Of a DNA stretch of 64,000 bases, positions 19,030 through 35,869 are shown in pieces. Made by a program: the position numbers and the translations under genes. The stretch comes from an uncultured Bacteroidales bacterium (GTDB lineage Bacteria > Bacteroidota > Bacteroidia > Bacteroidales > Bacteroidaceae): contig CACZAN010000017.1 in assembly GCA_902779165.1 (NCBI GenBank), forward strand, positions 62,001-126,000, written 5' to 3'. The first letter of the stretch is position 1. The number at the start of each line of letters is the position of its first letter. The notes beneath the pieces are model-generated. The model saw only the letters and a list, made by a program, of their open reading frames with translations, was not told where the DNA came from and searched no databases.

Positions 19030-19037
19030 CAAAGGTA
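19030..19037 (-). promoter_or_regulatory. Promoter -7 box (TACCTTTG)
   Basis: Minus-strand TACCTTTG 20 bases before the coiled-coil gene start. The rest of 19038-19285 holds heptamer-like repeats (ACTTTAA, ACTCTCA pairs at about 19043-19074) and otherwise nothing I can identify. Confidence 0.65.
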
Positions 19038-19285: not shown

Positions 19286-19546
19286 TTATGACGATGTGAT
19301 GCGAACCTGCATCCCTGTTTGAGTCAAGTGGTCACCACAGACATCCCTCTCCCGTTCCTCCTGAGTTCCCCATTTCAGATTATAGGAATCCACGAGGCTG
19401 TATAGTTCCACCATCTGAGCTGGCACCAGAATCTCCTGAAAAGCACTCTCTGGTGCCCGGAGGAACTCAGCCAAAGTCGTAATCCCTAACCTCTTACAAG
19501 CTTCAAGAATGGGAGGACTGATGTGATAATCTTCTATGTTGCGCAT
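19286..19546 (-). CDS. Small protein with an alpha-CTD-like helix-hairpin-helix start
   Basis: 86 residues. The first half (ISPPILEACKRLGITTLAEFL, followed by RAPESAFQEI) has the spacing of the helix-hairpin-helix of the RNA polymerase alpha C-terminal domain (S-x-x-x-x-x-L-K-x-x-G-I-x-T-L-x-E-L). No further domain is seen. It starts 8 bases after the 264-residue gene and is probably co-transcribed. A truncated copy of its 5' end occurs at 21045-21122. A nucleic-acid or protein-docking role is only a guess. Confidence 0.6.
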   Translation of the reverse strand: MRNIEDYHISPPILEACKRLGITTLAEFLRAPESAFQEILVPAQMVELYSLVDSYNLKWGTQEERERDVCGDHLTQTGMQVRITSS

Positions 19547-19554
19547 GGTAGAGT

Positions 19555-20349: not shown

Positions 20350-20369
20350 TCTTTATATTTGATGATACT

Positions 20370-21023
20370 TCATGGACGCCAAAGAAATTCGTGGCTCGCT
20401 AAAATTGTTGTATCACTCCAGTAGTCATCGTTGTATATGGAATCGTCAATCTTTGGATTGATAAATGATTCCTCTGGCCATAACTTGCGAAGTCTAAGAG
20501 CATATTGAATATTTTCTGTCGCCTTCTGATATGCTACGACCTCGTATTTATCATTAACTTCATTCTTTGGCTTAACCTCCAATGTTTTCCAACCTATTCC
20601 ATTGGGATAGAACCCAATATAATGATAAGCACGTGGTTCTACACTAACCCAGCCACTCATGTGCTCAAATTCATCGGAAAAGCATTTCCAGAATATCTCT
20701 CCTTTGCTCATCCTGTACATCTCTAGCTCTAAATGATTGTCCCCCCAACATTCAAAGATGTAAAGGCCATCTTGTGGTGCCATTTCATCTTTATTTGTAA
20801 TATGAATCCACAATGGCTTTATACTAACAATCCGTTCAATTTTAAAGGTTAAACGATGGTGCTTTTCTTCACAATATGCATCAATGTAGTTATCTCCATA
20901 TTCATCAGAAATACACACGTCTGTTATGTTTCGCAAACACGTTTCACCATTCGCTTTAAGATATTCTATCTCCACAACTGAATGAGATTCTAAGAATGCC
21001 AACATGTCCAAGTTCCTAACCAT
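20370..21023 (-). CDS. Protein with an N-terminal WYL-like domain, no HTH
   Basis: 217 residues. Residues about 10-75 (VVEIEYLKANGETCLRNITD ... YIDAYCEEKHHRLTFKIERI) fit a WYL domain, a ligand-sensing module common in defence regulators. The remaining 140 residues (WGDNHLELEMYRMSKGEIFW...) are not recognised. There is no DNA-binding domain, so it is more likely a sensor or effector part than a repressor. AT-rich, same strand as the other island genes. Confidence 0.5.
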   Translation of the reverse strand: MVRNLDMLAFLESHSVVEIEYLKANGETCLRNITDVCISDEYGDNYIDAYCEEKHHRLTFKIERIVSIKPLWIHITNKDEMAPQDGLYIFECWGDNHLELEMYRMSKGEIFWKCFSDEFEHMSGWVSVEPRAYHYIGFYPNGIGWKTLEVKPKNEVNDKYEVVAYQKATENIQYALRLRKLWPEESFINPKIDDSIYNDDYWSDTTILASHEFLWRP

Positions 21024-21044
21024 ATATTTATGTCTTTCTATATT

Positions 21045-21122
21045 TTAATCCAAAAATATCCCTAACCTCTTGCAAGCTTCAAGGATAGGAGGGCTGATAT
21101 TATATTCTTCTAAGTTGCGCAT
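21045..21122 (-). pseudogene. Truncated duplicate of the 86-residue gene
   Basis: 25 codons (MRNLEEYNISPPILEACKRL, then GIFLD and stop) match the first 21 residues of the protein at 19286-19546 almost exactly, then end. As with the full copy, it begins a few bases (6) after the stop of the gene before it, so the repeat unit included the junction. Confidence 0.75.
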
Positions 21123-21128
21123 GGTATG

Positions 21129-21608
21129 TTACTTCTTTGATGGAATATAATATCCAGAATCTATCAAATATAATAGATGTTTCACACATTCTTGTTTTGC
21201 AGATTCCCTATCGTGCTTTATACTTGCACGATAAAAAGAAGAGATATAAGAATAATGATTTTGAGCTGATTCGATAGCTCTATATTTGCCCGATGAGAGT
21301 TCTGCTATAGAGAATTCATATAGTTCGCCATCCCAGTTAATTGTAGTGCCAACGGGGAACTCTTTTTTACATAGAGATAACGCTTTTTGCACATCATAAC
21401 TGCCATTTGTCAAAACTTCAGGATTATCCTTGTAATATTGAAATAAATTCAGCGGTAATTTATAATGTTTGTATCCAGCATTAATACTACCTATGGCTAT
21501 TAAATTAAGAGTAGGGTCGCTGAAATATTCGCCTAACTCTATTTCCACCTTGTGCATTCCTTCTGAACGAAAAGGTTTCTCTTTAAATGATAACACGTTG
21601 ACTTTCAT
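21129..21608 (-). CDS. Hypothetical protein
   Basis: 159 residues, no signal or membrane segment, no family recognised. Mixed alpha/beta composition (SFKEKPFRSEGMHKVEIELG ... LIAIGSINAGYKHYKLPLNL). Lies 38 bases after the PLD gene and is probably in its transcript. Codon use is AT-rich like the rest of the island. Confidence 0.55.
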   Translation of the reverse strand: MKVNVLSFKEKPFRSEGMHKVEIELGEYFSDPTLNLIAIGSINAGYKHYKLPLNLFQYYKDNPEVLTNGSYDVQKALSLCKKEFPVGTTINWDGELYEFSIAELSSGKYRAIESAQNHYSYISSFYRASIKHDRESAKQECVKHLLYLIDSGYYIPSKK

Positions 21609-21646
21609 ATTGATTTTGTATGATAATGTATGATAAAGGGTGTATT

Positions 21647-22840
21647 TTATAGTTCATTAACAAAGAATTCTCTCATGACTTTTTCTCCTCTTTTTTGAGG
21701 ATCCCAGCCTTCGTAAAATACCACGTTGTCGCTGTCAACCTCTTTTATTATTCCTAGAAGGTTAATTGCCGAGATAGTTCTTGGTATGGCATTCTTCCAG
21801 GTCTTTGGCTGGCTTTTGTTGAACATAGGTCTTGGAAATAGGTAAAAAAACATCTTTGCCAAATCAATACGCAGCATACTGTCGGGGATTAATTTTCTTG
21901 TTGTCATTGATAAAGTCTTTGAGCAAAGAACCTGTTTAATACTCAAAATGAATTCTTCATCATAAACATTGAGTTTTAGTCCACATGCAAAATGTGCATT
22001 TCTTCCTGCATTTGTCTTCAACACTCCTTCAATATATTCACGATGGTATTTGTCTTCTTTAATACTGTATGGAATATACCACCATTTGCCTATGTATGCA
22101 TGACCATCAACATCATCGTAAGGTTTCCCTACAGTGTTTTCTTCCCATAACCGATATGTAAAATCTTGCCACCTGCTTGTTAAGACATCTTTAATAGTTC
22201 TAAGATGTTGTTCTGTCGCGAGCGAACTAGCTATGGCCAATTCTTCTGCATCTCCACTTTTATATGCATGGTCAAGATTAATTAGCTTGATTCGCTTTAA
22301 TTCGCTATTCTCATCATTCTTAGCTATAACATCCCTGAATATGCTTCTTCGGAGTTCAGAGAAATCACCCTCTTTAACATCTGTCCACTTAAAACGCTCG
22401 TAAGGCTGTGGAATTGGTGTTGCATCACAAAATAATCTATCGAATTCTTCTCTATAACTATTCACGACACTCTCTTCGTCAGTCATAAGAATGTTTTCAC
22501 TATTATTATTTGCATGATAAGTCCAATTGTATGATCCTGTGATAACCATGTCGTCGATTATACAGAATTTATTATGCATAGTCCCTTTCACGGATTCTGC
22601 AAAACGAACTTCTGCACCCAAATTTGATAAAATGCCAAAATCAAGTCCAAACTCATTCCTGTTTATTAAATCATCCAAAATGACAACTTTAATCCTAACG
22701 TTGTTGTTAAGCACACTCATTAACGCTTCAAATAAGAGATCATTGGTAAACCAAGCAACTGCAATTCGAATGTAATTTTTTGACGAGGCGATTTGCCTCA
22801 ATAACACATCTTGGATATTGGCAAAATAAGGACTTGTCAT
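21647..22840 (-). CDS. Phospholipase D-like domain protein
   Basis: 397 residues. The first 140 form a single PLD/nuclease domain: IRIAVAWFTNDLLFEALMSV, the HKD motif in HNKFCIIDDMVITGSYNWT, and NNSENILM. The rest (about 250 residues) is not recognised. Single-HKD proteins act as dimers, as nucleases or lipases; in defence islands PLD proteins are common nucleases. Placed 36 bases after the HEPN-type gene, so likely one operon with the retron region. Confidence 0.8.
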   Translation of the reverse strand: MTSPYFANIQDVLLRQIASSKNYIRIAVAWFTNDLLFEALMSVLNNNVRIKVVILDDLINRNEFGLDFGILSNLGAEVRFAESVKGTMHNKFCIIDDMVITGSYNWTYHANNNSENILMTDEESVVNSYREEFDRLFCDATPIPQPYERFKWTDVKEGDFSELRRSIFRDVIAKNDENSELKRIKLINLDHAYKSGDAEELAIASSLATEQHLRTIKDVLTSRWQDFTYRLWEENTVGKPYDDVDGHAYIGKWWYIPYSIKEDKYHREYIEGVLKTNAGRNAHFACGLKLNVYDEEFILSIKQVLCSKTLSMTTRKLIPDSMLRIDLAKMFFYLFPRPMFNKSQPKTWKNAIPRTISAINLLGIIKEVDSDNVVFYEGWDPQKRGEKVMREFFVNEL

Positions 22841-22876
22841 GACCTGTGGATATTGGTGATTATTACTTACAACGTA

Positions 22877-23701
22877 TTAAACTAAATTGTCTTTTACACT
22901 ACATGCTAAGATTTTTATTTTCTCAACAATATCATCATAAGGCTTATTATTATACCAGATGAGATAATTATATAACGCAAATTCTTTGGTGTTTTTGACT
23001 TTAGACTCATAAATATTGTATGCTAAGGTGTCCTGTTTCGTTTGATACCAGTCAAATGTACCATCACTTTTCAATGAAATCTTCCAGTCAAGTAGTTTCT
23101 TTTGATAGGCTTCAGTAGAAAAATCTTCTTTTTGAGGAGTCCTATGGCTTTGGCTATTTCTTACTTCACGTACATGGTCAAACGTTTCTCGTATATTGAT
23201 TTTAAACTCACAATCATAAGCCCAAAGCTTCACACTAAAAGAAATTGAAGACAAACTGGTGTTGTTGTCAGAGATGCTTGCTTTCGGATTATATTGTTTT
23301 ATGTGAGATATGATGTTTGGGATGGAACCATCTTTAACCGTATAGAAATAGTTGAGCAGCATTTCAGCTTGGAGTTGAGCGTACCTACAGTATTCTTCAA
23401 AATCTACCTTATGAGAGCGAGTCCCATATCGATATCTCATCATTTCACGATTGTCAGAAATTAATTTGTCTCTAACCTCAATTTCACTGATAAAAGCATA
23501 ATCAATGATAGACTCCATAGCATCAATATAGTAGTCTAACCCTAAGTATTTCTCTATATGAGAAATGCGCCCATCATCGCTTTTAATCACTGATGCAGAA
23601 ACCGTTTTTCCAAACAGCTTCTGCATTTCTTGACGGAACTCGGAATTTTGTTCTGCCAATAGTTTTATTTTCTTTATGGTTGCTAACAACTTTTCATCCA
23701 T
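22877..23701 (-). CDS. Protein with a HEPN-type RNxxxH motif, next to the retron RT
   Basis: 274 residues, largely helical. FDHVREVRNSQSHRTPQKED contains RNSQSH, which fits the R-N-x3-H active-site motif of HEPN ribonucleases, in the usual place after a helix. The N-terminus (DEKLLATIKKIKLLAEQ...) is charged and helical. The start overlaps the reverse-transcriptase frame by 8 bases, so the two are translationally coupled. As retrons pair the RT with an effector protein, this is the natural effector candidate (inference). Alternative: a chance RxxxxH in an unrelated helical protein. Confidence 0.5.
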   Translation of the reverse strand: MDEKLLATIKKIKLLAEQNSEFRQEMQKLFGKTVSASVIKSDDGRISHIEKYLGLDYYIDAMESIIDYAFISEIEVRDKLISDNREMMRYRYGTRSHKVDFEEYCRYAQLQAEMLLNYFYTVKDGSIPNIISHIKQYNPKASISDNNTSLSSISFSVKLWAYDCEFKINIRETFDHVREVRNSQSHRTPQKEDFSTEAYQKKLLDWKISLKSDGTFDWYQTKQDTLAYNIYESKVKNTKEFALYNYLIWYNNKPYDDIVEKIKILACSVKDNLV

Positions 23702-25137
23702 CTTGTAACGTATTTAGTAGTGAATCTAATTCTGCATTTAGTTCATCCACATCAATAGCTGGAGGTGGAGGAACCATCACTTTATCTTTCCGGTGTATGA
23801 GCCAGAAAGGCTTCTCGTCTTTACCTCGGCATGAAGATATTGCAAGAACTTCTTTGTTCTGTTCTTCTTCTATGGTAAGTGTCTTATTGACAGTTACCAA
23901 CATTTTCTTGTCGTTGAGCATGAAATAGGCATAGTGTTTGCCTTTCTCGCTGATGGCAAAGGTAACAGTAGTAGAATTCTTCTTCTCAAATTCTGTTATA
24001 CCAATTGTTTCAAGATACGTTACTCCTTTTGAGTTGGTCTTTTCAGAGATAGCGTCTTTGTTTGCCAACTTTTGGAACTTAGCATAAAGCCTAATATAGA
24101 CGGGATCATCAACGCCTTTCACCATCTTCAGGTACATAAGTTTTCCGTCAATCACATTTATAAGATCTGGATTTCCTTTTTTCACATGTCCCTTTTCTTC
24201 TTTGTATTTTTGGAAAAACTTACCATAAGCAACATTATAACCATATCTATCCCACATATAGAGGATATTACGAATGTCACGAACATACTTTTGTGTCACA
24301 TTCAGTTTATCACTGACAATGATGCCGGTAACTTCCTGCCTACTGCTCTTTGATAATTCGTTCGAGTTCCACCATAAATTTCCCCCTTTTACTATACACG
24401 TAACGCATGGAAGAAAATGTGATGTCGTCTGCATAACGAGTATAGTTCATATTAAATCGGTTTGCCAGTCTACTTAGATAATAATCAAGTTTGTCACAGA
24501 CCATGTTTGTAATGATAGGAGACGTCGGTGCTCCCTGGGGGAGAACAAAGACGTCCTCTTTATTCCCATTCTCGTCCTCACGACTCTCTTTCATGCAACA
24601 CAATCCAGCCAACAAATTGGCAATAGGCTGATTGAACTTGAATGGTGGAACCTGAAGCCGTTTCCAAACTCTTGCTTGATGGATACAGGGGAAGAAATCC
24701 TTTAGGTCTAAGTTAAGTATATAGTCCATCCCAAGGTGCGCTGACGCATTAGTTACCACAGAACGTCCATCTGTAAATCCCATAGCATATTCTGATGGGG
24801 TATACATCGAACGGAACAATTCATTGACTGCAGAAAGCATCATCATGAAACTTTGCGTCCTTGGTGCCGTAATTTGTCTAGTGCCACCAGACTTCTTTTT
24901 TATCTTGAATTGACGGTAACGATGGAAAGTGTGATTAGGGTTACAATAGAAGTTTAGTTGTTTTTCCGTGAACGGATGATACATAGAAGCATCAAAGCCC
25001 ATGTCCTCTATCTCAGCCTTTTTTATTTGGTTGAGTAGATTAAGAAGATCTCCCTTGTTTTTGAGCTGTAATGCTTGTTGTGCTATCTGTTTTCTATCCA
25101 TTTCACTTTGTATTATAGGAAGCGGTCTCTGACTCAT
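23694..25137 (-). pseudogene. Retron-type reverse transcriptase, broken by a frameshift/deletion
   Basis: Two overlapping frames make one RT. Frame 1 (25137-24340) holds the fingers/palm: KKKSGGTRQITAP, the retron-specific NAxxH motif (NASAHLG), LDLKDFFPCI, LPQGAPTSP and the catalytic YADD, and ends with LERIIKEQ-stop. Frame 2 continues with SSRQEVTGIIVSDKLNVTQK, carrying the retron VTG motif and the thumb (DPVYIRLYAKFQKL), plus about 115 further residues. Compared with Ec86 RT, about 12 or more residues between YADD and VTG are missing, including the N-x-K-K-T region. The frame switch occurs at the 8-mer AAGAGCAG, so a deletion between short repeats is likely. The RT is probably dead here. 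Confidence 0.8.
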
Positions 25138-25176
25138 CTTTTCACTGAAATGTCTTTTCTTTGTATAAGAATAAGA

Positions 25177-25232
25177 TCATAAAAATATAATCTCATAAAT
25201 ATAAGTCATAAAAATATACAACTCATAAAAAC
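25177..25232. repeat. Degenerate direct repeats (TCATAAA)
   Basis: TCATAAA(AA)TATA-type units begin at 25177, 25193, 25206 and 25223, between the candidate ncRNA and the RT start. AT-rich; function unknown. Confidence 0.55.
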
Positions 25233-25425
25233 AACAACAATGTACAACGTACGTAATAGTGCAACGTTAACGCTCAAACATTGTTTCTCTCCAGAACCCC
25301 GTAGAGACTGAAGACATCTTGCGAATCTACCTCCGAAGAAGCAGGGCTTGCGCGACGCAAGACGAAATTCAAAATACCATTTCAGTTTCCAGACTTATCA
25401 AAGACCGCTATAATAATCCATTTCT
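25230..25425 (-). ncRNA. Candidate retron msr-msd RNA
   Basis: The 290-bp gap upstream of the RT encodes no protein but folds: AACAATGT/ACATTGTT arms (25236-25243 with 25278-25285) enclose an inner AACGT/ACGTT stem; CTTGCG-tcg-CGCAAG at 25347-25361; and a GTAGA/TCTAC stem around AAGAtgTCTT. Position directly 5' of the RT is where msr-msd lies in retrons. I could not find convincing a1/a2 repeats, and the branching G is not assigned. Confidence 0.4.
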
Positions 25426-25427
25426 TC

Positions 25428-26030
25428 TTACTTTTTAATTTTAACGAGACGAATAGGAAGCTTATATCCTGAAAAGACATTTGCGACCTCTATGATTGGC
25501 GTGCGTCCTGATCCCTTTTCAATTATAATAGCTTTTTGCTCATTTGTGTCTTGATGATTTTTTAGCCAAAAGCGAACTGAGCCGCCACCATACTTTGGTT
25601 TCCCAATTTCTATTTCGTCCTGCATATATCCTTTAGCGCCCAACTTTATACTATTCCCATTTGGACCAATAATGGTAATACCATAGAAGGATTGTCCACT
25701 ACTACTATAACGACCTTGCCATTTACAGATTTCAAGTAACTCTTTCCATTGTTCTTCTGTTGGAAGATTTAATCCTGATGCTTTTGCGTATGGTAAATAC
25801 ATAGTATTACCATTTTCTGATTCATAGTTGTTTGCCCAAAGTGTTCCACTTGGAAGACCCAGGTCAACAAATTCATTTCTGTTGTCACGAAGGTCAACAG
25901 GGATTTCTTCCTTGCAGTCCTTGTAACCTTCACGATAACCATCTTCGTATGCCTTGGCGAGCGCATTGGCAATTACTTCGTTAGCATTCTGTGCTGCGTA
26001 CTTATAAGCTTTTTCGGTAAGTGCAATCAT
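25428..26030 (-). CDS. FISUMP-like protein under the island operator
   Basis: 200 residues. After a helical N-terminus (YAAQNANEVIANALAKAYED), EFVDLGLPSGTLWANNYES and LNLPTEEQWKELLEICKWQ match the Fibrobacter succinogenes major paralogous (FISUMP)-type domain usually found in surface proteins, but there is no signal peptide, so it is probably cytoplasmic. Its promoter carries the same operator as the WYL operon. It is the gene immediately upstream of the retron ncRNA/RT, so read-through from this promoter may feed the retron. Role unknown. Confidence 0.6.
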   Translation of the reverse strand: MIALTEKAYKYAAQNANEVIANALAKAYEDGYREGYKDCKEEIPVDLRDNRNEFVDLGLPSGTLWANNYESENGNTMYLPYAKASGLNLPTEEQWKELLEICKWQGRYSSSGQSFYGITIIGPNGNSIKLGAKGYMQDEIEIGKPKYGGGSVRFWLKNHQDTNEQKAIIIEKGSGRTPIIEVANVFSGYKLPIRLVKIKK

Positions 26031-26054
26031 ATCATGTTCTTATGTTTTCGGATG

Positions 26055-26089
26055 CAAAGGTACTAATAATTGACGAAATGTATGTTCGT
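26055..26089 (-). promoter_or_regulatory. Promoter plus shared island operator, site 1
   Basis: Minus-strand -7 box TACCTTTG (26055-26062), 10 bases, then the inverted repeat ACGAA-N7-TTCGT (26073-26089; plus strand ACGAAATGTATGTTCGT). The start codon lies 25 bases below the -7 box. Same geometry as the sites at 26909-26943 and 31498-31532. Confidence 0.8.
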
Positions 26090-26101
26090 AGGTGTGACTT
26101 T

Positions 26102-26884
26102 TTATGTCGTTTTATTAAATAATAGGTCTAAATATTCCATTCCGGCCTCATTTTTACACATAAATTGATGTATTAGCATCATTGTCTCAGAAATCTGTGC
26201 TATACGAGAGTCACTAAAGTTAAAGTGTAGTTTAAGTACTTTTTGAAGAAATTTCCTACAAAGGTTTAAGGTGTGCTCTCTGATTGTTTGGTCAGAAACT
26301 TTTGCGAAATCAAGACCTTCTAACAAATATCGAATCTTTCTTCCAGCAAATAGAGTGATTAAAAAGTCTCCCTCCCTGAAAATATCTCTTTTGCCTTCAT
26401 CGGATTTTATTATTATCTTATCCTTTTCAAGCATATCACTTAATCCTCGGATGTATGCTATAGAAGAATTTGTATAATCTTCGGTGAACGCTATTTTACA
26501 GGCTTGCACGATAATCTCAAAAAGATAATTCCAATCATATAATGGTGCATCAAATGTTGTTACCCTATGATTGTCCCACTGATACAATTTAGCTATGTTA
26601 AAATTGAGAATATAACGATTGCCTTTTTTAATGGCGGCTTTCAGATATGATAAACGGCCATATCCGAAGTTTGTCATGATGCAAATTTCTAGATTCTTTT
26701 CTGGAATAGTAATCGTGTCATTAACAAACCCTAGAAATCCATGAGGACGATATAAGATTTCCTCAGAAGTCTCATTTTCAATAAAGTTCCGGGTATATAG
26801 TCCCATACTTTCAGAATAGCACAAGCACTTTGTAAACTGGGACTTAATTTCTTCCCAATGTTGAGTATTTTTTCTTGTTGCCAT
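26102..26884 (-). CDS. Island protein of unknown function under the shared operator
   Basis: 260 residues, no signal or membrane segment, not recognised. N-terminal part is alpha/beta (YRPHGFLGFVNDTITIPEKN, then LEICIMTNFGYGRLSYLKAA), the C-terminal 100 residues mostly helical (HTLNLCRKFLQKVLKL). No catalytic motif stands out. Lies downstream (same strand) of the helicase gene but with its own operator-promoter, 18 bases of leader. Shared control with the WYL operon suggests it belongs to the same system. Confidence 0.6.
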   Translation of the reverse strand: MATRKNTQHWEEIKSQFTKCLCYSESMGLYTRNFIENETSEEILYRPHGFLGFVNDTITIPEKNLEICIMTNFGYGRLSYLKAAIKKGNRYILNFNIAKLYQWDNHRVTTFDAPLYDWNYLFEIIVQACKIAFTEDYTNSSIAYIRGLSDMLEKDKIIIKSDEGKRDIFREGDFLITLFAGRKIRYLLEGLDFAKVSDQTIREHTLNLCRKFLQKVLKLHFNFSDSRIAQISETMMLIHQFMCKNEAGMEYLDLLFNKTT

Positions 26885-26908
26885 ATTTTTTCTTTTTTAT
26901 TGATGATG

Positions 26909-26943
26909 CAAAGGTACCACCTGTTTGCGAACACTATGTTCGT
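26909..26943 (-). promoter_or_regulatory. Promoter plus shared island operator, site 2
   Basis: TACCTTTG (26909-26916, minus strand), 10 bases, then GCGAA-N7-TTCGT (26927-26943; GCGAACACTATGTTCGT). Start codon 25 bases below the -7 box. Confidence 0.8.
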
Positions 26944-26957
26944 AGGGCGAATAAAAT

Positions 26958-28985
26958 TTATTGGCAGAGTTTTTCAACCACACTTTTCAATATCTCATCA
27001 TCTGATCCTTCATCAGAGAAAGGCTGGGCATAACTGATAAACCCATCTTTGGTTATGAAGAACTGTATCCATGAATAACTTCCAGTGCCTTGTATATAGT
27101 AGAAAACGCAATAGTTGGTCAAATGCTCTACGATATTGGTAATCTTCACGTCTAAATCAGAACAGATGGACTCTACATTATTATATAGAGTACCAAGAAC
27201 TTTGCTTGATGGCGAATACCTAAACGAGCATAACGGGGTCAAGTTTATCTGTATGAGAGAGAGGATGTTGACGATTCCTTCAAGATTATCGCCTGCCATA
27301 TATCTAGTGAATATACCCGCCTTGTTGTAAAAGCACTGCACCAAGTGGTTCTGTTCCTGGGCATCTTCAATGTGATACCACTCGCAGTATTGTTTGCTTT
27401 CAACGCCTTTCACTAAACAGCCTGCACTCTTCAACTCGTCTGATACGGCCCAATACTTTGCCTTCAAAAAATTGGGCGCATCGCTATGATGGAATGGTGT
27501 CTCTGGTACATCAGTGAACGAAAGGTATTCCTCACGAGGTTTGTTGACTTTGATAATGGGAGCCACCCTCATCTTCGACAATGGAGTGACATTGGGTATG
27601 TTGTACCCATAAAGTGTATGACTTGCTCGTGTTGTAACGGTATAAGTCCATCTGAGATTATCATTGCTCAATCCCGTCCTGCCGGTATAATCTACAAACA
27701 CTGTACTCCATTCTCCACCCTGTGATTTGTGCCCCGTAATAGCATAGCCGTACTTTACACGTAAAGCGTTATAATACGGATCGCCTTTAAGCAACTCTTT
27801 GAACTGTTGAGAGTTCCTCTTTAGTTCTGGATGTCGCATGCAGAAATTAATATAGAGGGCTTGAATTTGGGTGAAGGTCAGATTTGAATCAGCATCATCT
27901 AACATACTTTCAATAATTTTACATACTTTTTCTCTTCCATCGTCTAACATGATACGGACATTGCGGAAGGCCAATGTAACATTCTGCCTAACCCTCTCTC
28001 TACCTTTTGTGACATAAACAGGAGCACTTTGGCACTCTGTTTCACCTCCAATATCTGTAATCTTAACGAAATCGCCATTCATCACATCCAACTTGTAGTT
28101 GTTATTAACAACTTGAAGTATGTCGCCAATCACAATATGTTTCTTTCCTGGATAAAGAATTTCGCGAACAGCATAATTATAGTCTCTCGCCTGGCGATTA
28201 CTGAAAGTAATGATAACCGACTGTCCGATTTCAGGTTTGGGATATAAATCAAGTAGCTGTCTGGGTATGTTGAATCCTGCAATGTCAATCACTTCGCCCT
28301 CTTTTCTATCGAATACTAGATTGTTTCTCTGAGCAGACTCAAGGAGTGCCCGGACTTTCATGGCATTGGAAAGTATGGCACTTCCTTCACCTTGCCGAAT
28401 AACATCTGTCAGTTCTGCAACCATCACCTTTATCTTGTTGCTCATGAAAAAATGCTCGTCCAAGGCATTTGATACATTATCACCTATAGGTGGAAGCTGC
28501 ATGGGGTCTCCAACAAATATCACTTTCCCTCCTCTATGTGGAGCGACGAAGGTAAGCAGGTCGTTAAGCAAACTGCCTGTTCCAAACTCAAAGAGTTCAT
28601 TGTGAACTTCGCGGGTTCCAATCATAGAAGACTCGTCAACGATACAGATACGGTCTTGGGCAGTGTCTTCTGCATCTTTCAACGGGAAGATATAGCGTAT
28701 ATCATCAGAATCTTCTTGGGTTTCGATTGTATCCAACTCGTATATACAGCGGTGTATCGTATTCGCTTCCTCTTGGGTCTTGGAACATAGAACTCTTGCT
28801 GCTCTTCCTGTCGGAGCCATTAGAATGGGCATTTTATCATACTTAGCCACCTCCTTTATGATATGACTAATCATGGTCGTCTTACCCGTTCCAGCATACC
28901 CTTTGAGGATGAATACGGATGCATTGCTATTCAAGAACCCTTTGATAGAGTCCAATACCTGCTGTTGCTGTTTTGTTAAAGTCAT
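26958..28985 (-). CDS. RecD/Dda-like SF1 helicase with an extra C-terminal domain
   Basis: 675 residues from ATG 28985. Motor motifs are complete: Walker A GYAGTGKTT, DESS box (CIVDESSMIG), GDPMQLPPIG (motif III), and YAITGHKSQGGEWSTVFVDY (motif V) followed by YTVTTRASHTLYG (motif VI). It is a 5'-3' type SF1B helicase/exonuclease-V-alpha-like motor. After about residue 490 comes a domain of about 185 residues (FRYSPSSKVLGTLYNNVESI ... YYIQGTGSYSWIQFFITKDG) I do not recognise. Eight bases after the TPR gene, third gene of the WYL operon. The in-frame Met at 29021 would overlap the TPR gene. Confidence 0.85.
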   Translation of the reverse strand: MTLTKQQQQVLDSIKGFLNSNASVFILKGYAGTGKTTMISHIIKEVAKYDKMPILMAPTGRAARVLCSKTQEEANTIHRCIYELDTIETQEDSDDIRYIFPLKDAEDTAQDRICIVDESSMIGTREVHNELFEFGTGSLLNDLLTFVAPHRGGKVIFVGDPMQLPPIGDNVSNALDEHFFMSNKIKVMVAELTDVIRQGEGSAILSNAMKVRALLESAQRNNLVFDRKEGEVIDIAGFNIPRQLLDLYPKPEIGQSVIITFSNRQARDYNYAVREILYPGKKHIVIGDILQVVNNNYKLDVMNGDFVKITDIGGETECQSAPVYVTKGRERVRQNVTLAFRNVRIMLDDGREKVCKIIESMLDDADSNLTFTQIQALYINFCMRHPELKRNSQQFKELLKGDPYYNALRVKYGYAITGHKSQGGEWSTVFVDYTGRTGLSNDNLRWTYTVTTRASHTLYGYNIPNVTPLSKMRVAPIIKVNKPREEYLSFTDVPETPFHHSDAPNFLKAKYWAVSDELKSAGCLVKGVESKQYCEWYHIEDAQEQNHLVQCFYNKAGIFTRYMAGDNLEGIVNILSLIQINLTPLCSFRYSPSSKVLGTLYNNVESICSDLDVKITNIVEHLTNYCVFYYIQGTGSYSWIQFFITKDGFISYAQPFSDEGSDDEILKSVVEKLCQ

Positions 28986-28993
28986 ATTACTCC

Positions 28994-30415
28994 TCATTTT
29001 ATAATAGAAACAACTCGCCATCTCCCGTCTGGCATCTTTTTTGCTTTAGCCTTAACGACATCGCCTTCCTTCAGGTTGTTGGCCTTTGCCAGTTTCTTTG
29101 GCACATAATATTGATGGTCAATAAAACAGAACTCTCCCTTTGCAGGAACAGACACCTTACCGCTGATGGTACAAACTTCTGCATCATTGACATGCTGTTT
29201 CTTTTTTGCAGTCACATGATGGTCTTTTTTATCTGTCGGATGAATAGTCAATACAATCTTCCGATGTTGGAAATCATACACTCGTACAAGGAAGATATCG
29301 CCAACAGATGCTTTCTTCAACAGCGGTGTGACCGTTGATTGTACATAGATTTTCTTCTGTTTGTTGACGAGGTTTACCCTTTCTTTTCCTGCATGATTGG
29401 TGACAATACCACTATAGGTCAGTTCTTCAACGGGTACATCGGAATAGGCAAGTTCTTCAGCCTTCTCAATATTACTTCGATAGAAAAGCATGGCTTGAGT
29501 GGAAGGGGTTATGCCCGACAGTTTATTCTGTAACAGATAAGCATCGCCTATGATTTTCCAGCCATTTTCTGTATAGGTCTTCATATACTGGCCAATCTCG
29601 TAAGCTGCCTGTTCCTTATTGGAATCCAGCAACAGGTTGGCCAAACCTAAACGTAGTTCACCAATGTACTCTTCCTTTCCCATCATGGTCAATGCCTTGC
29701 AATATAATGAGATTCGAACTTCCTTATCAGCACAGATGTCGCCAAGATGTTTCCAAATAAACCACTCTGGTGTTGTACGGAGAAGTGCCTTGTATTCTGC
29801 AATGGCTCTTTCAGTGTTGCCCTGCCAGTAATACAACTGAGCGATATACATCCCGATGAATCTGTTGTTTGGGCATTTCGCCTTGATGATCTCAAAGAAC
29901 GGAAATAGTTCATTAACGAATTCTTCTGTATGACGTTTCTTCAGTTCTTTATAGAGACGGGTAGCGACGTTCTCTGCCAGAGATTGGAATTCGATAGACT
30001 TTCCATTATCCGTAGTTCCTTTTGCCGATAGGAAATCTTCATCGCGTAGGCTTTCCAGTTTCCACATCAGGCAGAATTCAATGAATTTGAAATCGTTCTC
30101 ATGCTTCTTTTCAAGATTGGCAGCTTGCATCATAATACATGAGTGCAGCGTACTTGGTTTGCAAGATGCAAAGGTCAGATAGAATGCCAATGCCTTCCTA
30201 ATATCCCTCGAAGACAATCTACCCTCATTGTTTTTCAGATAACGATAGATAGTCCACCCGCAGGGCTCTTCAAAATACGATGGTATTTCTTTTGCTTCAA
30301 AAAGAGGCAAAAGGGATTGATACGCTTCTTCGTATTTTTGCTCCTTGCCAAGCTGATAGGCTTTGGCTACATCTGGAGCAATTGCCTTGATATGTTCTTG
30401 CGAGTTGATATCCAT
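28994..30415 (-). CDS. TPR protein with C-terminal S1/OB-like domains
   Basis: 473 residues. Residues about 1-320 are helical repeats (YEEAYQSLLPLFEAK, NTERAIAEYKALLRTTPEWF, then IWKHLGDIC), TPR-like. The C-terminal 150 have two beta-rich segments (ASVGDIFLVRVYDFQHRKIV; AKANNLKEGDVVKAKAKKMP, then DGRWRVVSI), an S1/cold-shock OB pattern that suggests nucleic-acid binding. Such TPR plus OB proteins accompany helicases in predicted bacterial conflict systems. The start abuts the WYL regulator stop with no gap; 8 bases separate it from the helicase. Confidence 0.65.
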   Translation of the reverse strand: MDINSQEHIKAIAPDVAKAYQLGKEQKYEEAYQSLLPLFEAKEIPSYFEEPCGWTIYRYLKNNEGRLSSRDIRKALAFYLTFASCKPSTLHSCIMMQAANLEKKHENDFKFIEFCLMWKLESLRDEDFLSAKGTTDNGKSIEFQSLAENVATRLYKELKKRHTEEFVNELFPFFEIIKAKCPNNRFIGMYIAQLYYWQGNTERAIAEYKALLRTTPEWFIWKHLGDICADKEVRISLYCKALTMMGKEEYIGELRLGLANLLLDSNKEQAAYEIGQYMKTYTENGWKIIGDAYLLQNKLSGITPSTQAMLFYRSNIEKAEELAYSDVPVEELTYSGIVTNHAGKERVNLVNKQKKIYVQSTVTPLLKKASVGDIFLVRVYDFQHRKIVLTIHPTDKKDHHVTAKKKQHVNDAEVCTISGKVSVPAKGEFCFIDHQYYVPKKLAKANNLKEGDVVKAKAKKMPDGRWRVVSIIK

Positions 30416-31474
30416 TTAATCTTGGTATTGGTCTAAATGTGCACTAAGACGATTCTTAATGTCTTCTCTGATTGACTTAGGAGAAAGAACAACGAGGTTG
30501 CCACCAAAAGAACACAACTCCCTGGTAAGTTCATAGTTTTGGATGCAATCAATAGAGAAGAAAGCGCCATCTGTGAGAGTTGGGTATTGTAGGCGGAGGG
30601 CACTATCACGGTTACCTGTATAATGTTTTTGTGATTCGTGAAGTGGTTTAGTTTTCACATAATCTTTGGAAATATCACTCACCCAAAATATAATGTGCTC
30701 AATGGGGCGATTGTCATACAACGTAACTCCAATAATGTCTTCAAAGCGTTCGTTGAGGTCGCCTTCATAATCTATAAAGGTGTGTGAAGGAAGTGGCACT
30801 ACTTTGTCTATACGGTCAAGAGCAAAATTCAATAATTTGCCATCATACTCAACAGCACCAAAGAGGAACCAGCGACGATTATACTCCTTTAATAAATAAG
30901 GATACAGATTCAGGCTGCGAATCAACTCTGGCTCTGAATAAGTATGGTAGTGGAGTTCTATAACTTGCTTGTGTGAACAAGCCGTGAACAACTCACCAAG
31001 CAGGGTAGAGTTTGCAAGAGGATTTTTTGTAAATGAAATCACTTGCTTTCGCGTCTCTGCGCGGAAGCCGCGACGCAACTTATCAAGAGCTTGCAAATTA
31101 GGAAGTCCATCGAACTGACCAAGCATAGACAATGCTTCGGACAGGAGAAAAGCTTCATCGTCAGTTAAGTCCTTCTTGAAAATAGAATAGGAGGGGTCGG
31201 CATATCTTAGACATTGCTTTCTGATAGACTCCATCTTTTCTCTGTCGAATCCAGAGGTGTAATATCGTTCAATCTCAGCCAGAAACGGTCCTTCGTATTC
31301 AATGTAGTGAATATCCTTCTCCAGCATCCTTCGACCAATGGAATCAAGACCTAACTCGTTGAGCTTCTTGTTCAACTCTTCGAGCAAGTCGTTCATCGAA
31401 TAAGCATGATACCTGTCGGAAAGTAATCCGTCAAGTATCTGGAATCGAGTCATTGCATTCTTGTTAACTGGCAT
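30416..31474 (-). CDS. WYL-domain transcriptional regulator
   Basis: 352 residues. N-terminal HTH (RFQILDGLLSDRYHAYSMND, then LLEELNKKLNELG ... GRRMLEKDIHYIE), middle WYL domain (HKQVIELHYHTYSEPELIRS, LYPYLLKEYNRRWFLFGAVE, then LLNFALDRIDKV), and a C-terminal WCX-like extension (FEDIIGVTLYDN ... VVLSPKSIREDI). WYL repressors such as BrxR and CapW control defence loci by binding inverted repeats in their own promoters. Here the operator ACGAA-N7-TTCGT lies in its promoter and in two more promoters of the island, so it is the likely repressor of all three. Confidence 0.88.
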   Translation of the reverse strand: MPVNKNAMTRFQILDGLLSDRYHAYSMNDLLEELNKKLNELGLDSIGRRMLEKDIHYIEYEGPFLAEIERYYTSGFDREKMESIRKQCLRYADPSYSIFKKDLTDDEAFLLSEALSMLGQFDGLPNLQALDKLRRGFRAETRKQVISFTKNPLANSTLLGELFTACSHKQVIELHYHTYSEPELIRSLNLYPYLLKEYNRRWFLFGAVEYDGKLLNFALDRIDKVVPLPSHTFIDYEGDLNERFEDIIGVTLYDNRPIEHIIFWVSDISKDYVKTKPLHESQKHYTGNRDSALRLQYPTLTDGAFFSIDCIQNYELTRELCSFGGNLVVLSPKSIREDIKNRLSAHLDQYQD

Positions 31475-31497
31475 ACACGATATTTTTAAATCGTGGG

Positions 31498-31532
31498 CAA
31501 AGGTACTTGGTCTTCACGAATCCTATGTTCGT
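31498..31532 (-). promoter_or_regulatory. Promoter plus shared island operator, site 3 (WYL operon)
   Basis: TACCTTTG (31498-31505, minus strand), 10 bases, then ACGAA-N7-TTCGT (31516-31532; ACGAATCCTATGTTCGT). Start codon 24 bases below the -7 box. The rest of 31533-31806 is AT-rich with no other signal I can name. Confidence 0.82.
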
Positions 31533-31806
31533 TTCGGAGGCAAATTTAACGATTATTATCCATTTTGAAGCAATAAGGTGGAAAAAGAAGGTGAAGGAAG
31601 CAGAATTTGCTATGTATTTGAAAAAAGTCTCTATATTATTGAGAGATGCATCAAGATAAAGCAAACGCTTCCTTTTAATCTATGTCTAGTTAAACGTTAA
31701 TTATTTAATTCATTGTTACTTATTGAGGGTTAAACATTTTGATTGCAATACTTTATCACATTATAATATCTGATTTTGCATTACTCTTTGTCGTTAGATA
31801 GAAGTG

Positions 31807-32121
31807 CTATAATGTTATACCTTCTCGTTGTACATTCGTTTGGAAAGGGGTGGCGAAGGGACGGTTTTCCCATTCGCTTCTAGGAAGGATCATGGTGCTT
31901 ATGTCGGCTCCAGTCTCTAACTCAATGTCATAGAGAGGTGCCTTTATCGCATCCTTCTCACTATAAGTGAGCCTGTCGGTATCCACCAGAATCAGCAAAT
32001 CGAAATCAGAATCGGGACGCGCGTCGCCACGTGCCTCCGAGCCTTAGAGTATCACTTGGACCGCAGGAAATCTGCGATGCATGGTCTCTCTTATCTGATT
32101 GACGACTTGTGCCCGTTCCAT
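31807..32121 (-). pseudogene. Minimal nucleotidyltransferase (MNT) with an in-frame stop
   Basis: Read from ATG 32121 the frame gives MERAQVVNQIRETMHRRFPA, then VQVIL-stop-GSEARGDARPDSDFDLLILVDTD. GS-x-A-R-G ... D-x-D is the Pol-beta-type MNT signature, and the stop (TAA, 32046-32044) stands where the family has a Tyr (LYGSxARG), one base from TAT or TAC. Length about 104 codons is normal. It could be reinitiated at Met 31998, but that would lose the active site. MNT proteins often act as antitoxins to HEPN toxins; no HEPN gene is adjacent, the nearest being about 8 kb away. Confidence 0.75.
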
Positions 32122-32142
32122 TCTTTTATAAGTTTTCGGCGG

Positions 32143-32150
32143 CAAATATA
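32143..32150 (-). promoter_or_regulatory. Promoter -7 box (TATATTTG)
   Basis: Minus-strand TATATTTG, 22 bases before the MNT ATG at 32121. Confidence 0.55.
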
Positions 32151-33146
32151 GTGATTATTTTGCAACATGCGGCAACGAACCACTGAAAAAAGCGACATTG
32201 ATGAGAAAAAAGAGTTGTTTTTGTAAGATATCGTGTTATAAATAATGCATGTTTATTGCTCTGTTGATATTATTTCCTCTTTTTGATTAACTGTTTTCCT
32301 CACATACAGATACCTCGGGTACTCGGTTTTTATTACCTACTTTTGCGGCGGATTAAGCTCAATATACACCTTAATATATCTATAGACAAATTAAGCCCAC
32401 CTATACACCTTATAAAAAAACTTTTTTTCAAAAATCCACCGAATCCACCGATTGAAAGGAGGGGTGAGAAAGGAGGCCACCTCGCTACTCGTCAAGTATC
32501 TAATGTGTCTTGACTGTACGCTAATTGTTTATATCACTGTTAGTTAGGCGGATTTATTCCCATTTGTCCTGAAATCGTTTAATTTGTCTCAGCAGTGCTG
32601 AGAGTTTTTCGCCTGTGCCTTTATAGGTCTCATAAATCTGCTTCATTCGCCAGAGGTTCTTGTCAAATCTATGCTATGAGAGGGTCAATAATTAGTTATC
32701 TGGGGACAAAGATAGTGATTATTTTGCATTCTATTTTTGCATACTATGCTAACGATTCTCAACCAGCTGGAATGGAATTCTGCAAATCAGAAATTCAAAA
32801 ACTATGCTAACCCTACTAACCTTGCTAATTTCTGGATGCCGAAGATGCTTCTCTGTCACTCAAATGATCCCCCATTCCGCTCCATACCCGTTCACTCTCC
32901 TTCCTCTTTCGCTCTTTTTCGGGCATTAAATTCATCACTCAAGTTGCCTGCATGTCGGCAACTTGTTGTCTGTTAGGTAATATATTGCTATCAAGAATTA
33001 GAGAATTAGAGAATGTTTCTCAATATGCAGAATAAAGCCTATGAATTGATGAGAATGACTAGAATATTTTTCAAATTCTTGACAATCAGAATGACTACTT
33101 GCGAAAGTCGAGTAATGTAAAATAATTCTGAATACCTACTTATTTC

Positions 33147-33238
33147 TCAGAATGGGTATCCATTTCATCCAAAAGGAACTTTTCAAGGGTGCGCTTGTCT
33201 GGCAGCTGGAGCATCCTCTTCCAGTCATCTTTCCCCTA
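33147..33238 (-). pseudogene. Gene-tail fragment
   Basis: A short minus-strand frame closed on both sides by stops reads GKDDWKRMLQLPDKRTLEKF, then LLDEMDTHSEK-stop. The composition is protein-like, but only 31 codons remain and I do not recognise the family. May be chance. Confidence 0.3.
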
Positions 33239-33254
33239 ACCTCCATATCTTCCG

Positions 33255-33344
33255 CTTGACGACCCTTGGGTCGTCAAGGCTAACATCCCGTTGTTTCGGC
33301 TTATACGCCCTGTTCTTATGCTTGACGACCCAAGGCTCGTCAAG
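33255..33344. repeat. Two related hairpins (CTTGACGACCC)
   Basis: CTTGACGACCC-tt-GGGTCGTCAAG at 33255-33278 is a perfect 11-bp stem; 33321-33344 is the same with one mismatch. Role unknown; could be terminator-like or protein-binding. Confidence 0.6.
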
Positions 33345-33436
33345 CCTCATTCCCTCCTATCCGACACTTTCTCTCTATAGGTGGGTTCTAAGTAGGTAAT
33401 CGAATTTACATATTTCGCCTGATAAATACACCTTAC

Positions 33437-33596
33437 TCAAGTTTCGTAAGTGATGCCGTAGGCATCAGACAATGGTAGCCAGCCATTTCAATGGCTGGTA
33501 ATGAGGATGTTGACGGATAGCGTGCCGTAGGTACGCGACAGGGATTCCCCGCTGGGGCTTTGTATTACAGCTGGTTAGCATCACTTACGAAACTTA
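33437..33596. mobile_element. MITE-like repeat, copy B
   Basis: Terminal inverted repeats AAGTTTCGTAAGTGATGC (33439-33456) and its exact complement (33578-33595), 18 bp perfect. The body matches copy A (7091-7270) in opposite orientation, including CAGCCATTTCAATGGCTG. Non-coding. Confidence 0.8.
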
Positions 33597-33919
33597 AAAC
33601 ACCTTATCATAAGTAGGTGTTACCCATGAGAAAGGAGCCAAGGTAGAAGAAGTCGTCATTCGCACGAAGACAGAGTATCAGCACGGTCTCCTGCTGACCA
33701 TGCCCCTGCATCACTCTCAGCAAGTATGGAGCGGAGTTTTGGACCATTTGAGTAGCAGAGAAGCTTCATCGGCATCCAGGAAATTAGCAAGGTTAGTAGG
33801 GTTAGCATAGTTTTTGAATTTCTGATTTGCAGAATTCCATTCCAGCAGGTTGAGGATAGTATGCAAAAATGGTTCCTTTCTCCACTCGTCCACTTTTTCT
33901 GTTTCCTATAAGCCGCACC

Positions 33920-35869
33920 CTATTCTCCGAGGCTGATGCTGGCGCACCAGCCACCGTTGCGGGCCATGTGGACGGGCAGGATGGTAGTGCTGCTGACTTT
34001 GCTCTCCTGACGGAGGTAGTCCATTGCAATGACGTGGGCATTGACACCATCGGCGAAACTCGTCATGCTGTACTCCTTGCCGGCGGGCAGGAAGTCGAGT
34101 TTGAGCTGCAGGTCACGTTCCGTGCTGTTGGTGATGCCGCCGATGAACCATTTGTCACCCTTGCGCTTGGCAGTGACACAATATTGTCCGGCTTCGGCTG
34201 CGAGGACACGCGTCTCGTCCCAGTTGACGGGCACGCTGGTGAGGAAGTCGCGGCAGTCGGGCCACTGGTCGTAGCGGCAGGGGTTGTCCATCAGCATCTG
34301 CAGGTTACTCTCAGCAAGCACGAAGATTGCCAGATTGAAAACCTTGGTGCCCACGCCTGCGCAAATGGGACGGTTGCCGTGATGCACCTCCGGCTGGTAG
34401 TTGAGCATCGATCCGGGCGTATAGTCCATGGGGCCTATAGCGTTGCGGATGAAGGGCAGCCATACACTGTTGTCGGGTTTGCAACTGCCGTTGTATTCCA
34501 TTCCTCGCACCCCTTCGTAGGTCAGCACATTAGGATATTTGTAGTCCATTCCGCTGGGGTGGTAGGCACCGTGGAAGTCAACGAAGATATGATGCTTGGC
34601 GGCTTCCTGTGCCACACGCTCGTAGAAGTTCACCATCCACTGGTCCTGGCGGTCCATGAAGTCTATCTTCACACCCTTGATGCCCCATTCCTCGAACTTC
34701 TGGAACAGGTCCATGTGATGCTCTACGGTGAGCCACGGGAGCCAGAGGATGACGCCTACGCCCTTGCTCTGGCCGTAGGCAATGATCTCCGGGAGGTGTA
34801 CTTCAGGGTTGGTCTCGAAAGGATTGCGGGTGTTCTTGGCCCAGCCCTCGTCGATGAGGATGTATCCCACGCCGTTGCGGGCCGCGAAGTCAATGAAGTA
34901 CTTGTAGGTGTCGAGGTTGATGCCGGACTTGAAAGTCACATCGGGTCCAAAGGGGATGCCGTTGAGCCAGTCCCAGCAGGTCTGTCCCACCTTGATCCAG
35001 TCGGTAGGCCCGATGGCGTTTGCCGGAGCCAGTCGCTCAGGCATCAAATTCAGCGGCAGCTGGGTGTCGCTTTGGGTGATGTACATATAGCGCCAGGGGA
35101 AGGTGCGTGTGCCGGTGGTCTTGGCCACGTAGTCGGCTTCCTTCAGGATCTTGTGGCTGCGGTCGCCCTGGTCTTCGTATTCTGTTGGACACTTGGGCTG
35201 GATGATGGAGAAGGCATTGCTGCCTTCGCCGCAAGACTTGAGGAACACGCCGGCATAATCGAAGAGATCGAACTCAGAGATGAGCACTTTCTGTCCGTCG
35301 CTCATGACGAGGATGGGGAGTTCGCTCATGCGGTCGTCGGCCTTCCATTCGTTGCTGGCCATCACAGAGTAGTTCTCCTCGCAGCTGGTCTTGAAGCCGC
35401 CTGGCTGCTGAAGGACGAGCCTGCTGGGCTTCGCGAGCTGCCACGTGCCGTCCTCGCCCAGCACCTCGATGTCGCCTTTCAGGGCAGTGATGAAACGGTA
35501 GGCAACGCCGTCGTTATATACGCGCCATTCCACCTTGTAGTTGCCGCCGAAGGTGAGGGTGAGCTGGGTGTAGTTGTTCTCCACTTTGCTGTACTTCAGG
35601 GGATGGATGGGGGTGATGGTTTCGTTGACCGTCGTCACCTTCTTGCCCTTCAGGACGGGCTTCTCGCCTAAGGTGCGGTCGCTGAGGGTCATGCCGATGT
35701 GGCACTGCTGGAACAGTTGTTCGCCATGACTCTCTACATCGTAGTAGATGCGGTCTGCAACGGTTACTGTAACCTTTGTCTGTCCGTCGGGACTGGTAGC
35801 GCTGACTTGTTTCTGCGCATGGGCGGTCATCGTTATAAAGACCACCGCCAGGGAAAGTAGTTTTTTCAT
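33920..35869 (-). CDS. Glycoside hydrolase family 97 (retaining type), second copy
   Basis: 649 residues with a signal peptide (MKKLLSLAVVFITMTAHAQ) and the same layout as the enzyme at 11801-13750: WDWLNGIPFGPDVTFKSG, YILIDEGWAKNTRNPF, GVKIDFMDRQDQW. Asp403 in the GVKID motif fits the nucleophile of retaining GH97 enzymes and VLTYEGVRG carries the probable acid/base Glu. The two GH97 proteins are the same length but clearly diverged, so likely different substrates. No SusC/D genes are adjacent. Its 3' end lies 50 bases from the inverted-repeat block. Confidence 0.9.
   Translation of the reverse strand: MKKLLSLAVVFITMTAHAQKQVSATSPDGQTKVTVTVADRIYYDVESHGEQLFQQCHIGMTLSDRTLGEKPVLKGKKVTTVNETITPIHPLKYSKVENNYTQLTLTFGGNYKVEWRVYNDGVAYRFITALKGDIEVLGEDGTWQLAKPSRLVLQQPGGFKTSCEENYSVMASNEWKADDRMSELPILVMSDGQKVLISEFDLFDYAGVFLKSCGEGSNAFSIIQPKCPTEYEDQGDRSHKILKEADYVAKTTGTRTFPWRYMYITQSDTQLPLNLMPERLAPANAIGPTDWIKVGQTCWDWLNGIPFGPDVTFKSGINLDTYKYFIDFAARNGVGYILIDEGWAKNTRNPFETNPEVHLPEIIAYGQSKGVGVILWLPWLTVEHHMDLFQKFEEWGIKGVKIDFMDRQDQWMVNFYERVAQEAAKHHIFVDFHGAYHPSGMDYKYPNVLTYEGVRGMEYNGSCKPDNSVWLPFIRNAIGPMDYTPGSMLNYQPEVHHGNRPICAGVGTKVFNLAIFVLAESNLQMLMDNPCRYDQWPDCRDFLTSVPVNWDETRVLAAEAGQYCVTAKRKGDKWFIGGITNSTERDLQLKLDFLPAGKEYSMTSFADGVNAHVIAMDYLRQESKVSSTTILPVHMARNGGWCASISLGE

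Follow-up and report, generated by a model that had tools for sequence, protein, structure and literature searches.

Three promoters on one strand of an uncultured Bacteroidales genome carry the same palindrome at the same distance from the same promoter box, and they raise the question of which protein reads this operator, which genes it joins and whether it would switch them on or off. They lie in a stretch of 64,000 nucleotides (nt) of assembly GCA_902779165.1 (contig CACZAN010000017.1, positions 62,001 to 126,000), hereafter the window. One of the promoters precedes an operon that begins with the gene of a WYL-domain regulator, another a gene for an unassigned protein of 260 amino acids (aa), and the third a FISUMP-like gene with a retron behind it. 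The sequence comparisons presented here give good support to an operator that is read by a WYL protein and shared by defence units of Bacteroidales, and we consider it very probable.

Three promoters with one geometry

A sequence-only reading of the window had described the inverted repeat at three places, and our pattern search of the window found all three where they had been placed (Table 1). The gap between the 17-mer and the box TACCTTTG was likewise exactly 10 bp at all three sites, and the ATG followed the box after 24, 24 and 23 nt, close to the 24–25 bp that had been given. The palindrome itself stood as described; the part common to the three sites, however, turned out to be longer than claimed and comprises the entire left side, ACGAACATA. 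Read toward the genes, the palindromes of the window have the form CGAACATA-N3-TTCG. For the 17-mer pattern 0.22 occurrences would be expected by chance in the window, with a maximum of 2 among 100 shuffles, and for the composite of palindrome and box with up to 3 mismatches only 0.04, three being reached in 0 of 100 shuffles.

The box TACCTTTG is a Bacteroidota -7 box and fits the TAnnTTTG of the housekeeping sigma factor. In the part of the literature compared (PMC7366714), TAnnTTTG is given as the -7 element of this sigma factor in Bacteroidota, with a TTTG near -33 in Bacteroides fragilis. The window contains 11 TACCTTTG boxes, and a palindrome of this kind was absent from the 45 nt upstream of the other eight.

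Specificity within the genome

We have counted the motif over the whole 3.59-Mb assembly, from which operator sites may be missing because it is 85.95% complete. The loose pattern CGAA-N7-TTCG was found at 85 sites, against 75 for the reversed control. Since this is background, the pattern is unspecific when taken alone and was rejected as a marker of the regulon. The longer form CGAACATA-N3-TTCG had four exact sites genome-wide, three of them in the window, and the fourth (contig 17, 51538) had no TANNTTTG within the following 75 nt. Neither this site nor six sites with one mismatch (together 7 of the 17 non-window sites) had TANNTTTG 11 nt downstream. The composite CGAACATA-N3-TTCG-N11-TANNTTTG occurred exactly three times in the assembly, at the window sites; relaxing it to 3 mismatches or fewer added a single match, with 3 mismatches, against 3 control matches. 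A weaker composite, CGAA-N7-TTCG-N11-TANNTTTG, gave five matches genome-wide and 0 in the control, the two additional ones being devoid of the CATA core. This census, which the sequence-only reading had suggested as a check, found the composite upstream of no unrelated genes in the assembly. Among virus contigs there were 0 exact matches to a stricter composite.

Conservation and association with one WYL subfamily

We analyzed 34 loci (503,751 bases) drawn from a collection of species genomes with the WYL protein as the sole criterion, belonging to Bacteroidaceae, Prevotella, Prevotellaceae, Alloprevotella, Muribaculaceae, Porphyromonadaceae, other Bacteroidales and a few distant relatives. 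The strict composite was present 32 times in 17 of these loci, while 23 of them had a relaxed one (CGMA-N7-TKCG with a looser -7 box), with 42 sites in total; the reversed control had 0 matches in both cases. Two or more relaxed sites were found in 15 loci, and in 14 of the 34 the start codon of the WYL gene had a relaxed site no more than 120 nt in front of it. The distance from palindrome to TANNTTTG was nearly invariant: 32 strict matches at 11 nt and only 4 at all other spacings from 0 to 40. Half-site gaps of 5, 6, 8 or 9 nt gave one match each at any spacing from 0 to 60. The sequence logo and the promoter counts given below include loci chosen by the composite, and the spacing claim therefore rests on the 34 WYL-chosen loci. 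In the logo, pattern-chosen loci included, an A-tract followed by a T-tract, resembling an UP element, is located 17 to 8 nt upstream of the operators.

In 399 genomes of the family, the weaker composite had 86 matches in 46 genomes, compared to 7 for the reversed control. With a first WYL profile (A1), not independent of the operator in that 15 of its 37 rows came from pattern-chosen genomes, the composite was found in 30 of the 33 genomes with a subfamily gene (a partial one, in G338, included) vs. 16 of 366 others (Fisher 4e-30). A second profile (A3), whose 22 rows come from the window plus 21 loci chosen by the WYL protein and none from pattern-chosen genomes, ranked the same 32 genomes at the top, with full-length genes at E 6e-86 or better and the next match at 1e-71. 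Here the composite was present in 29 of the 32 full-length subfamily genomes vs. 17 of the 367 others (Fisher 7e-29). Twenty further genomes had only weaker WYL matches at 1e-60, and the single one of them with a composite was G338, where the partial WYL gene begins 48 bp from it. Overall, 63 of the 86 matches had a subfamily gene no more than 15 kb away (again counting one partial gene). The composite was found in 0 of 37 genomes that had only a second, lower-scoring WYL subfamily (profile A1). Because of this distribution and the closeness of the matches to the gene, the operator is, as judged from co-occurrence, that of this subfamily and not of WYL proteins at large. The same operator, which the sequence-only reading had proposed to look for in related genomes, is thus present in them.

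Both sites of locus L027 and both of L034 read CGCA...TGCG, a variant that, being common to the sites of a locus, indicates a locus-specific reader. As residues that might account for the variant, positions 24 and 27 of the WYL proteins (and also 72 and 80, outside the helices) differ cleanly, on two sequences only. Some family genomes, G001, G090 and G244 among them, had composites of good consensus and no detected full-length subfamily WYL gene, the regulator being lost, fragmented or missing.

The WYL regulator and its probable mode of action

The 352-aa product of the first gene of the operon matched the Pfam families WYL (PF13280, 2.3e-9) and WCX (PF25583, 8.6e-6), both above cut-off. Its structural model (predicted local distance difference test, pLDDT, 81.6) begins with a putative winged helix-turn-helix (HTH), with helices at 7–18, 27–40 and 48–61 followed by two strands. 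The Pfam search gave no HTH match, and this assignment comes from the model and from long alignments to DriD and PafBC. Foldseek ranked DriD at the top (1.5e-14), followed by PafBC (1.1e-12), CapW (3.6e-9) and BrxR (3.7e-8). In a profile search the nearest solved structures were those of PafBC (7p5x and 9fnd, E 3e-7), BrxR (7qfz) being weaker (E 0.0039). On plasmids and phages, WYL relatives were only about 33% identical or below among the matches listed (10 of 14 plasmid and 4 of 4 phage records).

The explanation that we favour is a positively autoregulated defence regulon, in which this protein would bind the three palindromes. A WYL dimer would occupy the site, which stands where a -33 element would be expected and keeps a constant distance to a good -7 box, and would act together with RNA polymerase, switching on its own operon with the candidate defence genes PDC-M16A/B, the 260-aa gene, and the FISUMP-like gene with the retron behind it. 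By analogy with DriD and PafBC, the signal may be a nucleic acid such as single-stranded DNA (ssDNA). In the part of its description compared, PafBC acts at the -35 region through sigma adaptation, inserting between promoter DNA and sigma domain 4, and is activated by ssDNA (PMC11804915). The DriD sites overlap the -35, where the promoters have poor elements, and keep one common distance to the -10, in the part compared of a preprint based on cryo-electron microscopy (PMC12340889).

The promoters themselves argue in the same direction. At the -33 position, i.e., 21–25 nt upstream of TANNTTTG, TTG was present in 0 of 61 operator promoters and in 30 of 91 others, with a peak at 22–23. As judged from these counts, the operator replaces the -33 element upstream of a good -7 box at a near-invariant 11 nt. 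The operator core, ATAG or ATTG, was in the forward orientation in 51 of 80 sites and reversed in 0; in the window and WYL-chosen loci alone it was forward in 22 of 35 and reversed in 0. This asymmetry makes the site directional relative to the promoter, a direction that a symmetric repressor dimer would not need. Because of the fixed spacing, the replacement of the -33, the oriented core, and DriD and PafBC as nearest structures, activation with a DriD-like geometry is the better reading, and we regard the combined claim of one regulon and its activation as somewhat probable.

Several observations weigh against this interpretation. The structural rankings lend weak support, as the identities in the DriD and PafBC Foldseek alignments were 14–18%, with TM-scores of 0.43–0.46 to full-length DriD and 0.33–0.35 to PafBC 9fnd. 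CapW bound to ssDNA (9c5g) also appeared among the Foldseek matches, so that ssDNA binding alone is no mark of activators. In the TTG count, positions 23–25 are precluded by the CGAA half and only 21–22 are informative; furthermore, no more than a third of the other promoters have TTG, and in the part compared of PMC7366714 a -33 motif was not found in Flavobacterium johnsoniae. A site over the -33 would also block the polymerase. The chief objection is that an ATAG/ATTG core serving as a poor -33 element could fix the spacing even for a repressor. Promoters that depend on an activator often lack good -7 boxes, and the boxes here are good. As for the association itself, the strict composite was missing from 3 of the 32 subfamily genomes (G027, G035 and G116) and the relaxed one from 11 of the 34 WYL-chosen loci, namely seven distant or partial relatives (L052, L053 and L055–L059) and the closer L028, L040, L048 and L049, of which L040 shows a site that is degenerate in one half.

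The sequence-only reading had proposed for the three units one regulon switched by a repressor at the -33 region, most likely the WYL protein itself. Its common operator and the WYL protein as likely reader are supported, with a regulon that extends further than it had suggested, and it is the repressor role that we do not favour. A BrxR/CapW-like protein that covers the -33, keeps the three units off and is released upon infection is possible, if doubtful. Expression of defence genes that have toxic effectors is usually shut down, and the operator does overlap the -33 region. The WYL transcription regulators described for defence systems, BrxR of BREX and CapW of CBASS, are repressors on inverted repeats in their own promoters in the parts of the papers compared (PMC9122588, PMC9122601), which weighs for this alternative and against activation. 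In those same descriptions, however, CapW binds over the -10 and BrxR has its box downstream of it, while the composite sites are upstream of the -7 at one distance. Neither the exact spacing nor the loss of the -33 is necessary for a repressor, and the core is oriented; together, spacing, -33 replacement and core come closer to the geometry published for DriD than to that of CapW or BrxR.

That another chromosomal regulator reads the operator, the WYL gene being merely one of its targets, appears improbable to us. The reading of the operator by the WYL protein is proposed from sequence, and the composite does occur in the 17 genomes without a full-length subfamily gene, one of which, G338, has the partial gene adjoining it. 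Part of those 17 are chance matches, given the 7 of the reversed control in the same genomes. The strong enrichment in subfamily genomes, the clustering of matches at the WYL gene, their absence with the second subfamily and the operator variants common within a locus all speak against an independent reader. Even harder to believe is that chance or recent duplication produced three promoter copies that are not regulated in common. The three sites are within 5.5 kb, but their 10-bp spacers and flanks are by eye unrelated, and spacing and palindrome are kept both here and in distant loci; the spacing in the WYL-chosen loci and the genome-wide count of the composite contradict this explanation. 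Returning to activation, a wider version of it is tentative and rather unlikely as a whole: a Bacteroidales immune regulon in which a WYL activator, at promoters without a -33, turns on captured retron, type III CRISPR, Ssp and PDC modules. Its trigger may be ssDNA arising from infected or damaged DNA and hence possibly the reverse-transcribed DNA (RT-DNA) of the retron, which would form a feedback loop.

Genes behind the operator

The features of the window are collected in Table 1. The WYL operon carries the candidate defence pair PDC-M16A/B, with both genes present; a literature search under the name PDC-M16 found no paper.

Table 1. Operators, promoter boxes and genes of the three units in the window (window coordinates)
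Feature	Position	Strand	Remarks
Operator 3	31516..31532	-	ACGAACATAGGATTCGT in promoter orientation; pattern search
-7 box TACCTTTG, WYL operon	31498..31505	-	10 bp from operator 3 17-mer
WYL regulator, 352 aa	30416..31474	-	predicted N-terminal helices, WYL domain, WCX domain
WYL operon gene 2, DUF7017 / S1CSD-TOTE-2	28994..30415	-	PADLOC PDC-M16B, E 1.1e-57
Helicase with TBP-TOTE domain	26958..29021	-	PADLOC PDC-M16A, E 1.3e-205
Operator 2	26927..26943	-	ACGAACATAGTGTTCGC in promoter orientation; pattern search
-7 box TACCTTTG, 260-aa gene	26909..26916	-	
260-aa gene	26102..26884	-	unassigned by Pfam, PADLOC, NCBIfam
Operator 1	26073..26089	-	ACGAACATACATTTCGT in promoter orientation; pattern search
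-7 box TACCTTTG, FISUMP-like gene, probably retron too	26055..26062	-	
FISUMP-like gene, 200 aa	25428..26030	-	TIGR02145 E 0.0031, 18.2 bits vs. cut-off 41.65
Retron non-coding RNA	25121..25409	-	long end-to-end closing stem (a1/a2); GCGGTCTTTGA at 25408
Retron reverse transcriptase, first frame	24340..25137	-	RVT_1 5.8e-16; RT-Protease_XI 4.8e-65
Second reverse transcriptase frame, C-terminal profile part	23694..24434	-	RT-Protease_XI 6.8e-28, profile 230-367
274-aa gene past the reverse transcriptase, presumed retron accessory/effector	22877..23701	-	without family match (Pfam, PADLOC, NCBIfam)

We have surveyed the cargo of the operator in the window and 53 loci, leaving out L111 because it duplicates L044, and using a greedy caller of open reading frames (ORFs) and 91 relaxed sites followed by a co-directional ORF of at least 80 aa; membership in an operator-led transcript was assigned from gene order and strand only. 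The first ORF behind the site was the WYL gene in 28 cases, a retron reverse transcriptase (RT) in 13, a member of the 260-aa family in 4, a FISUMP-like gene in 4 (one of them 1.1 kb from its site), the helicase in 1 and others in 41. From box to RT there were 232–299 nt in 10 of the 13 RT-leading sites and 440–882 in the other three. Other genes led by the operator or linked to the WYL gene code for Cas10/Csm1 (L043), SspC (L038), PDC-S02 (L026), OLD-like ATPases near NsnB (L096, L104), a RecD-like helicase (L094), UvrD-like helicases (L026, L102) and YhcG-type nucleases (L032, L094). When 20 hand-picked proteins were compared to PADLOC, 11 had no match at 1e-10.

The 260-aa protein belongs to a family of 217–262 aa proteins that recurs in these islands (window, L032, L034, L041, L100 and L106), its relatives being directly led by the operator in L032, L034 and L106 and not in L041 and L100. 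Its model was of low confidence (pLDDT 66) and gave no fold match with E < 0.001. Large proteins of 947–1010 aa were also found behind the operator or beside the WYL gene (L044 10316–13348, L108 4218–7235 and L037 5171–8014). They had no PADLOC match, two of them showed a beta-propeller signal far below cut-off, and they are candidate new defence genes. Proteins with WG repeats were located directly behind the operator, near WYL and retron genes, in L046 (3271–4110), L042 (9135–9977) and L029 (7225–7998).

Site 1 is likely the promoter of the retron, because the FISUMP-like stop codon is 18 nt before the start of the non-coding RNA (ncRNA) and the stretch from the site-1 box to the ncRNA, which has no -7 box of its own, is free of TANNTTTG. 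The sequence-only reading had suggested that transcription from site 1 could read into the retron, and this is strengthened by the same two facts and by the related loci, where 12 of 24 related RT genes have the palindrome no more than 360 nt upstream and 15 a GGTCTTTGA-like leader. That leader pairs with sequence near the RT start and is by eye the retron ncRNA; folding was carried out for the window, where the ncRNA gave a z-score of -8.35 with a closing end-to-end stem. The repeated CGGTCTTTGACA sequence, considered as a CRISPR leader, was rejected as such, being the 5' end of the retron ncRNA. An Rfam search of window positions 19000–34000 gave no retron match, only SECIS_3 far below cut-off. 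Such an RT is present in 16 of the 34 WYL-chosen loci, and in L098 and L109 relatives of the FISUMP-like gene stand between the operator and a retron RT. The RT of the window (23694–25137) is divided between two overlapping frames, both of which match a part of one RT profile, while in related loci it is a single ORF, mostly of 380–570 aa (1001 in L027); a frameshift, decay or an assembly error may be the cause. In other loci, too, relatives of the 274-aa gene are found downstream of the RT, the best match being in L044 (3e-109). A PLD-like nuclease (PLDc_2), without a composite of its own, is encoded shortly after the retron genes, at 21647–22840 on the minus strand.

Comparison with known systems

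The induction of defence islands and retrons is little understood, and in many gut and rumen bacteria different defences, retrons included, appear to be wired to one switch. A short operator placed so exactly is a sequence tag for co-regulated or new defence genes, the 260-aa family and the proteins of about 1000 aa being examples, and co-induction of the whole island, together with its trigger, becomes directly testable in cultivable Bacteroidales. WYL regulators and regulators of defence islands are already known. What looks new is a cross-genome operator with fixed promoter geometry and mosaic cargo, placed directly at retron ncRNA promoters. A literature search, with most subscription journals and preprints outside it, found in the text covered neither a description of this operator nor a paper in which a WYL protein regulates retrons.

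Among known regulators the closest resemblance is to DriD of Caulobacter crescentus, a homodimeric WYL activator that senses ssDNA. It has the same HTH-WYL-WCX fold and, in the text compared, operator sites at one fixed distance that overlap a poor -35, here -33, element. Identity to the window protein is about 15%, and ssDNA binding and activation would be carried over by analogy; DriD serves DNA-damage genes of Caulobacter, whereas here the targets are mosaic anti-phage modules behind a Bacteroidales TAnnTTTG promoter. PafBC, the mycobacterial WYL activator, provides the nearest solved structures by sequence profile; it differs in being a heterodimer with a -26 motif, against a single gene and a palindrome here.

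BrxR and CapW share with the window protein the condition of defence-island WYL regulators on inverted repeats at their own promoter (PMC9122588, PMC9122601, parts compared). Apart from the position of their sites, which overlap or follow the -10 in the text compared while those found here are upstream of the -7 (only composite sites having been sought), BrxR has two boxes in its island and is the weaker profile and fold match, and for neither is a multi-operon regulon of fixed spacing described in the text compared. RptR is likewise encoded in and controls a defence island through a conserved site, but it is not a WYL protein and uses TAGCTA repeats that overlap the -10 at a single promoter (PMC12255303, part compared). 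As in known retrons, there is an RT, a structured ncRNA with an end-to-end stem and a following gene, with types XI/XII/XIII and I-C nearest by RT profile; different here are RT profiles that match partly, a second gene without family and a transcriptional operator at the ncRNA.

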